Positions 43,026 to 47,405 of a DNA stretch of 64,000 nt are shown here, piece after piece (position 1 is the stretch's first letter; every line of letters begins with the position of its first letter). The DNA is from Chitinivorax sp. B (GTDB lineage: Bacteria; Pseudomonadota; Gammaproteobacteria; Burkholderiales; SCOH01). Made by a program: the position numbers and the translations under genes. The stretch is from contig NZ_SCOH01000008.1 of NCBI RefSeq assembly GCF_005503445.1, positions 1 to 64,000 on the forward strand, read 5' to 3'. The notes under the pieces were generated by a model. The model did not search any database. It worked only from the letters and a program-made list of their open reading frames with translations, and had not been told where the DNA came from.

Positions 43026-44090
<1,065 letters not shown>

Positions 44091-44276: not shown

Positions 44277-45900
<1,624 letters not shown>

Positions 45901-45904
45901 ACAC

Positions 45905-46007
45905 ATACCGCATTGCGGCAGAATGCACAGCGTGAAATCCAGCTAGGCGCAAGCCTGCTCCTCTCTCCTAAGATTTATCGGGGTACATTTAGTACCCCGT
46001 TTTTTTT
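45905..46007 (+). ncRNA. Candidate terminator-ended small RNA
   Basis: A plus-strand transcript must end at the strong terminator at 45979-46007, yet no coding gene lies upstream on that strand. Three hairpins follow each other: CCGC-ATT-GCGG (45908-45918), a GNRA-loop hairpin AGGC-GCAA-GCCT with an extended AGC/GCT stem (45941-45959), and the terminator. Between the last two is an unpaired C/U-rich stretch, CCTCTCTCC, a typical anti-ribosome-site seed. The 5' end is unknown, so the start given is only the first hairpin region. No known RNA family was recognised. Confidence 0.5.
45979..46007 (+). terminator. Strong plus-strand intrinsic terminator
   Basis: CGGGGTAC, five-base loop, GTACCCCG, then eight T. 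It is oriented for plus-strand transcription, while both flanking genes are on the minus strand. Confidence 0.92.
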
Positions 46008-46033
46008 GCACTGCAAAAGTCTCACACATTAAT

Positions 46034-46085: not shown

Positions 46086-47159
46086 TCAGTAGCTATAGAA
46101 CATCCGCTGGATATCTTTTGTCGAGGTGGTTTTAGTCAATGCCAGCATCAACAAGACCCTGGCCTTTTGCGGGTTTAACGAGTCACTGACGACAAAGTCC
46201 AACTCATCGTCCCTAGCCTCTCCATTACGTGCCACAACACCATTACCGACTCGGGAGCTGCGCACAACTACGACCCCCTCCTTACGAGCATCAATCAGAC
46301 CTGCCTTCATGGGTTCCGAAAAGCTACCGTTCCCCATGCCAGCATGAATTACACCTTTCACACCAGCTTTAACAAAGGCATCCAGCGCCACTCGATTGCT
46401 GTTTGCGTAGGCATACACAACATCCACAGCGGGCAGGCTTTCCAGGTCAGAAATATCAAACTCGGATTCGGTAGTATGCTTGCGGGAGGGCTGGCGATAA
46501 AAATATGGTCGCCCATCCTGGATGTAACCTAATGCGCCCAACTCGGGAGAACGAAACGTGTTGACCAACATAGTGCTGGCTTTGGTAACGTCACGCGCAG
46601 CACTTACTTCATCATTCAATGATACCAACACACCTTTACCAACAGCCTCCTTACTCCCAGCCAAAATCACTGCGTTGTACAAATTAAGTGGACCATCTGC
46701 ACTCATAGCCGTAGCTGGCCGCATGGAGCCAACCAGCACGATCGGCTTCTTGCTTTTGACAACCAAGTTGAGGAAATATGCGGTCTCTTCCAACGTATCG
46801 GTTCCATGTGTAATGACAATACCGTCTACGTCATTCTGCTTTGCAAGCACATTGATACGCTTAGCCAGCTTCAGCCAGTGATCGTTATTCATGTTTTCGC
46901 TGCCGATTCGGAACAGTTGCTCGGCACGAACTTGCGAGATCTTCTTGATTTCAGGCACCGCATCAATCAATTGATCCACACCGATTTTACCCGCCTCATA
47001 GCCCACTGTGGCCGTGCTACTTGCAGCAGCACCGGCAATGGTACCTCCGGTCGCAACAATAATGATGTTGGGCATTGGTCTAACTGGTTCGGCCTGAACA
47101 TGGATGGCGGCTGCGCAAAACAGTGCGCCCATTAATCGAGTCAGCATAGTGTTCAACAT
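46086..47159 (-). CDS. Type II (periplasmic) L-asparaginase
   Basis: Hydrolyses asparagine (and possibly glutamine) in the periplasm, 357 residues. The start at 47157-47159 follows AGAGGA and gives a signal peptide (MLTRLMGALFCAAAIHVQA). The two catalytic Thr are in IIIVATGGTIAGAAAS and VITHGTDTLEETAYFL. Next are VLVGSMRPATAMSADGPLNL and GMGNGSFSEPM. The mix of motifs matches AnsB and the glutaminase-asparaginase group equally well, so no symbol is assigned. It is a single gene with its own terminator. Confidence 0.92.
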   Translation of the reverse strand: MLNTMLTRLMGALFCAAAIHVQAEPVRPMPNIIIVATGGTIAGAAASSTATVGYEAGKIGVDQLIDAVPEIKKISQVRAEQLFRIGSENMNNDHWLKLAKRINVLAKQNDVDGIVITHGTDTLEETAYFLNLVVKSKKPIVLVGSMRPATAMSADGPLNLYNAVILAGSKEAVGKGVLVSLNDEVSAARDVTKASTMLVNTFRSPELGALGYIQDGRPYFYRQPSRKHTTESEFDISDLESLPAVDVVYAYANSNRVALDAFVKAGVKGVIHAGMGNGSFSEPMKAGLIDARKEGVVVVRSSRVGNGVVARNGEARDDELDFVVSDSLNPQKARVLLMLALTKTTSTKDIQRMFYSY

Positions 47160-47405
47160 GGGATTCCTCTTAGTAACGCCGCGAAAATGGCAAAACATGC
47201 GACAAGACAGATGGTCTTACCTGAGGCTACTGGCGGGGTAGTGTGGATATCTCGTAAGGGATACGCACAATAGTCAAATCAACTACATTGCTGACAGGCG
47301 TAATTTATTTACTGATAAACGGAAGAAAAACGAAGTTCTTAATCTGAGTTTACTCAATACCCTTTGTCATACAACGCAGCATCAAGTAATTGGTACCGAC
47401 GATTT

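Follow-up and report, generated by a model that had tools for sequence, protein, structure and literature searches.

The window analysed here, a stretch of 64,000 nucleotides, carries queA, a phosphatase-like gene, a type II asparaginase gene, a proposed small RNA (sRNA) and tgt, in that order. Its lineage is betaproteobacterial, judging by the names borne by most of the closest Tgt relatives. The asparaginase gene (46086–47198) and tgt (44277–45464) both lie on the minus strand, as the first-pass annotation had stated, and flank the sRNA on its 3′ and 5′ sides, respectively. The sRNA itself would occupy 45839–46007 of the plus strand (~169 nt), with a 3′ end set by a terminator and an uncertain 5′ end (45809 to 45869 all possible). 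Beyond tgt and on the same strand is a gene for tryptophan–tRNA ligase (43026–44060, 344 aa; TIGR00233 above cut-off). The locus was compared within one family: the window's own genome (G000), another species of the same genus (G001; locus L002, 3,150 bases), a member of another genus (G003; locus L003) and two members of a third genus, g2 (G002 and G004).

The proposed RNA ends at an intrinsic terminator on the plus strand (45979–46007), where the stem CGGGGTAC/GTACCCCG (45979–45999) forms 8 bp, six of them G-C pairs, around a 5-nt loop and is followed by a run of eight T (46000–46007); the 8-bp stem and the eight T are as first described. The region has 2 terminator-like sites where 0.8 would be expected, a number close to chance; conservation, not the terminator alone, lifts the locus above that level. 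Two stable hairpins had been claimed upstream, and one of them is robust: a 7-bp stem with one bulge and a GNRA tetraloop (45941–45959, plus strand; GCAA, or GTAA in G003), whose mean pair probability is 0.94–0.95 in the window RNA, 0.79–0.85 in G001 and 0.66–0.69 in G003. The other, CCGC-ATT-GCGG, is weak, with only 4 bp, and in the relatives the same stretch is part of a longer imperfect stem. The consensus fold of the three sequences contains a central imperfect stem (45908–45935, plus strand) in which 88.9% of cells are paired, with no two-sided changes among the three sequences.

Between the GNRA hairpin and the terminator lies the C/U-rich seed CCTCTCTCC (45960–45968, plus strand), which is complementary to Shine-Dalgarno-type sites and invariant in three genomes. 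It had been described as unpaired; its position is as claimed and it is largely free, but it is partly paired, with a mean unpaired probability of 0.61–0.78 in the window RNA (varying with the assumed 5′ end), 0.51–0.81 in G001 and 0.83–0.90 in G003. Across eight folds the range was thus 0.51–0.90, the seed being mostly free in most of them and half paired in some; two of the three folds of the window RNA show partial pairing of the seed with an AGGGG stretch nearer the 5′ end. A 139-nt stretch folded better than its shuffles in the three genomes (z of −3.34, −3.48 and −2.53, with 0, 0 and 4 of 200 shuffles per genome as stable as the native sequence).

Conservation of the element was assessed by an ungapped comparison of the window with G001, anchored at GGGTTATCCC. 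Identity is low in the upstream flank (13/61), in two spacers (16/43 and 7/28) and in the downstream flank (17/78), so that within the genus the flanks of the element are ~22% identical, and it is high in a putative FNR-type box with its extension (45761–45782; 19/22), a possible −10 (5/6), the 5′ part (27/35) and the modelled part (96/113). The segment from hairpin to seed (45945–45978) is the most conserved of all, with 33 of 34 positions identical. Conservation begins abruptly near 45860, with the separate conserved box ahead of it. Across two genera (three genomes), no change occurs in GCCTGCTCCTCTCTCCT or in any of the seven base pairs of the GNRA stem, the only tetraloop change being GCAA to GTAA. 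All eight terminator pairs are kept, with one GC-to-AU two-sided change and one UA-to-UG change (G003). The conservation of hairpins and C/U-rich loop on which the first-pass annotation had made its proposal depend was therefore found, in that the GNRA pairs, GCTCCTCTCTCCT and the terminator pairs are kept in three genomes. For an alignment of three sequences the covariation does not reach significance: 176 of 500 shuffles matched the single two-sided change. A coincidence of chance hairpins with a chance terminator would agree with the near-chance number of terminator-like sites, but it is extremely improbable given that three genomes, from two genera, conserve the element. These comparisons make it very probable that the stretch is a genuine small RNA gene of narrow distribution.

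Its distribution was followed by several routes. In a blastn search of 41 genomes, the region matched G001 (83%, E 1e-39, window 45860 to 46009) and G003 (82%, E 2e-23, window 45861 to 45969). G019 gave one further match (39 nt, E 0.0065), which includes neither seed nor terminator. The element is thus strongly present in three of five family genomes, its own genome counted. A covariance-model search of related genomes, proposed at the outset, did return strong matches in three family genomes, and these are the sequences (G000, G001 and G003) from which the RNA model was built: among 399 genomes of the order, the three builders scored 120.8–136.4 bits and 17 further genomes reached 18.7–27.9 bits at E 0.1; among 369 genomes of the class, the match was strong in the window's genome only, with 19 others at E 0.01 and at most 29.7 bits. 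The weak matches outside the family (18.7–29.7 bits) were rejected as relatives, ten alignments of 18 matches sharing chiefly the terminator. Homologues were also sought through the neighbourhood of tgt, for which 589 loci were found and 80 retained; a model scan of 58 sources (55 of these 80 loci plus the window, L002 and L003) gave only 16–20.3 bits beyond the three builders, and the remaining 25 loci were covered by string search alone. Plasmids yielded no match to the element, and two viral contigs have in common with it only a 17-mer, around which hairpin and terminator are absent. In genus g2 the element is absent, and a phosphatase-like gene adjoins tgt in G002 (L196) and G004 (L195); L005 looks alike. 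Filtering was strict and the genomes were a sample, so distant relatives may have escaped these searches. One of the weak matches, L097:1501–1569 from a different family, also has TCTCTCTCCC a short way ahead of its terminator and is possibly another sRNA with a C/U seed.

The genomic setting differs on the two sides of the element. tgt lies on the 5′ side in all three genomes. The 3′ side is occupied by the convergent asparaginase gene in the window, has no asparaginase at the corresponding place in G001, where the next downstream gene is convergent, and carries a co-directional truncated asparaginase fragment of 152 aa in G003. As each of the three genomes has a different 3′ side, the sRNA element is not tied to the asparaginase gene. 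The G003 fragment (L003:966–1424, minus strand) lies beside the sRNA, inverted relative to the window order, and matches the C-terminal part of asparaginase at 70% identity (141 aa aligned). This setting bears on the reading in which the stretch is no more than the terminator or 3′ end of a transcript that comes from upstream or runs antisense (to tgt, for instance), or else the leader of a downstream gene. The location of tgt upstream on the opposite strand and the truncated asparaginase frame downstream in the same direction in G003 both fit such a reading. However, the next downstream gene is convergent in the window and in G001, the onset of conservation near 45860 is abrupt with a separate conserved box before it, and a bare terminator would not hold hairpin and seed invariant; we regard this explanation as improbable.

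Coding potential was considered on both strands. No reading frame common to all three genomes is kept. A plus-strand peptide was rejected, as the frames differ between genomes and the frame common to the window and G003 meets TAG in G001. The terminator had been reported to have no plus-strand gene before it, and indeed there is no convincing one: the nearest open reading frame (45734–45946, 70 aa) is stopped in G001, where the aligned part ends after MTTGLSRKGY. On the minus strand, the conserved stretch could be read as a small gene with the ribosome site AGGAGAGAGGAG, a TTG start beginning at 45952 and a 26-aa peptide. Its Shine-Dalgarno-like sequence is strong and lies 5 nt ahead of the TTG, and the two genus members share the position at which the 26-codon frame closes. 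In G003, however, the start is TTA and no stop occurs there within the 27 codons read, while 12 of the 14 codons that differ within the genus are non-synonymous. The peptide was rejected on the TTA start and the amino-acid-changing codons; it would also leave the plus-strand terminator, its T-run and the FNR box unexplained, and a minus-strand gene is thus very improbable.

The follow-up analysis added an upstream element that was absent from the first-pass annotation, an FNR/Anr-type box with the sequence ATGAT-AAGA-ATCAA (45761–45774, plus strand). It is a pattern match with 9 of 10 bases of the FNR/Anr consensus and one mismatch. The 64-kb window contains 7 boxes with at most one mismatch, where 3.4 are expected, so a single box proves little. 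G001 has an FNR-type box at L002 1402–1415, the only one in its 3,150-base locus, where 0.17 are expected, and in both G000 and G001 the conserved GGGTTATCCC starts 95 positions after the last box base. That two diverged flanks each carry a box in the aligned position is a stronger point than one box alone.

Comparison with G001, which has TTAAGT-17-TATAAA at the aligned place, suggests a possible −35 of weak consensus, TTAAAA (45803–45808, plus strand), and a possible −10, CATAAA (45826–45831, plus strand; TATAAA in G001), separated by a 17-nt spacer. With these elements the RNA would begin near 45839 and the FNR box would lie near −71.5, in a class I arrangement; a class II arrangement would be without a good −10. 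A consensus promoter scan did not report the proposed −35/−10 and gave one plus-strand site (45743–45771), which overlaps the FNR box; promoter-like sites on both strands were at chance level (2 found, 1.5 expected). A curated FNR model scored above cut-off in G000, G001 and G003, as well as in G004, which lacks the sRNA, and the FNR proteins of G000, G001 and G003 have the N-terminal cysteine cluster. No FNR box was present near the RNA in G003, so FNR control would be at most genus-wide. Within the window's genus, the balance tips slightly towards FNR activation of the sRNA.

The features expected of an Hfq-dependent trans-acting sRNA are present, namely a terminator with a U-tail, a separate conserved seed and a host Hfq gene, the last being encoded in all five family genomes. 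Two pattern searches gave 49 places, three of them within the sRNA; five genes were taken on to translation and two to a test for orthologues. Matches to the seed pattern barely exceeded reversed-pattern controls (30, three of them the sRNA itself, versus 21), with a modest excess before ATG (19 versus 10). Over 51 gene starts of the window, mean pairing with the seed did not surpass that of shuffled seeds, 158 of 200 of which equalled or exceeded it. The ribosome site of dppA, a gene for a dipeptide-binding protein, pairs at −18.7 kcal/mol in G003, the match that picked the gene, at −17.0 kcal/mol in G001 and at −15.7 kcal/mol in G000; among 118 background starts, taken from the window and 18 loci with a crude choice of start codon, one reached −17.0 and two reached −15.7. 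The G000 and G001 sites are near-copies and therefore come close to a single observation, in a test that covered two genes. The best NCBIfam match of the product is DppA, below the model's cut-off. The other gene, amtB, was rejected as a target: pairing was −19.7 kcal/mol in G000 (the match that picked it) and −16.2 kcal/mol in G003, but −7.8 kcal/mol in G001. From predicted pairing, dppA is the best target candidate found, a weakly supported lead.

The sRNA first envisaged is supported by conservation; with weak target evidence, its anti-ribosome-site role is plausible only. Weighing both, we think action in trans at ribosome sites reasonably likely. The element could instead be a conserved sRNA that is neither FNR-controlled nor directed at ribosome sites, its seed pairing elsewhere or the RNA mainly binding protein. 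Such an sRNA would be in keeping with the missing box in G003 and with seed matches at start sites that are not clearly above controls, but would not account for a box whose position and spacing agree between two species with surroundings only 21–37% identical, for hairpin and seed being the most conserved part, or for dppA pairing in three genomes. We consider it unlikely, though a serious competitor.

The explanation that we prefer, and hold to be moderately probable as a whole, is an independently transcribed trans-acting sRNA that is activated by FNR in the genus and whose seed blocks ribosome sites. The gene would be transcribed independently into an RNA of ~140–200 nt, and in the window's genus FNR would probably activate it at low oxygen through the box at 45761–45774. 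The RNA would fold into a 5′ domain, the GNRA-capped hairpin and the terminator, with Hfq loading at the U-tail of the latter. CCUCUCUCC, exposed in the segment that separates the hairpin from the terminator, would pair with purine-rich ribosome-binding sites and block initiation, with peptide uptake (dppA) as the best candidate target found for repression. Transcription, oxygen control, Hfq binding, repression and targets are all things that we infer. A further-reaching idea, which we put forward as doubtful, is that a clade-specific FNR-activated sRNA, evolved apart from FnrS/AniS, lowers the uptake of peptides, and perhaps of ammonium and other nutrients, as oxygen falls, using one invariant anti-Shine-Dalgarno seed and so joining oxygen sensing to nitrogen supply.

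Comparison with known systems began with Rfam, which contains an FnrS family. A scan of the window gave only a tRNA at gathering score and no family at threshold for the element, and homology to FnrS of Enterobacteriaceae was not seen among the five weak Rfam matches of the region. E. coli FnrS ends in a terminator and resembles the proposed sRNA in this respect and in FNR control, which is predicted here; the two belong to different lineages. E. coli FnrS is reported to be FNR-controlled, to repress genes not needed without oxygen and to have a class II box at −41.5 (PMC8139620, PMC3032703); the sRNA box would more likely be class I, near −71.5. Closer in lineage, Neisseria AniS and gonococcal FnrS are described as betaproteobacterial, FNR-linked and induced without oxygen, AniS being annotated as NMB1205; for gonococcal FnrS, a class II site and a fold of 5′ stem-loop, unstructured region and terminator are predicted (PMC4423775, PMC3032703). 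The sibling NmsR RNAs of Neisseria are reported to repress TCA-cycle genes through UC-rich single-stranded anti-Shine-Dalgarno regions, two in each of the two siblings (PMC5362039). By analogy with these Neisseria RNAs, compared by description only, the sRNA would act most like AniS, gonococcal FnrS and NmsR. Titles, abstract beginnings and passages of the open-access literature held no description of the sRNA, and a search for the seed string gave, among the matches listed, titles on animals, people or plants.

The best sub-threshold Rfam matches of the element, RF00519 suhB/mmgR (20.4 bits, gathering 41) and RF02866 ncS16 (18.4 bits, gathering 48), were rejected; like the sRNA, both have a C/U stretch ahead of an intrinsic terminator. 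The betaproteobacterial toxic small RNA family RF02278 (gathering 50 bits) gave no match at the locus even at E up to 10. It scored over cut-off elsewhere in four of five family genomes, the window's included, and the three places listed for G000 are all on other contigs. As these RNAs sit at other places, the sRNA is a separate anti-ribosome-site candidate. In Burkholderia, such double-hairpin RNAs are reported to have unpaired C/U-rich stretches, as does the sRNA, and 55–80% of their predicted interactions fall around gene starts (PMC5688073); the sRNA is longer and has one C/U-rich stretch. The element thereby adds a small RNA family without an Rfam model match at threshold, spotted from raw sequence, and places an anti-ribosome-site candidate alongside the double-hairpin RNAs already known from these genomes. 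Should the FNR link prove true, the element would be one more sRNA that responds to oxygen with no demonstrated sequence relationship to FnrS, and could help to address how frequently switches of this sort arise anew.

Several RF02278-type loci were recorded in passing. G000:C16:81303–81365 (55.6 bits; L186) and G000:C12:106864–106924 (44.5 bits; L191) are double-hairpin RNAs of this type. The latter represents a second RF02278-like subtype, which has TTTCTCCTCTATTTCTCCTTTGTA and recurs in the other family genomes (L189, L190, L192 and L193); in L189–L193 it is preceded by the palindrome-like ATTAGATAATTCTAAT, whose last block ends AAT or AATC and which is perhaps an operator.
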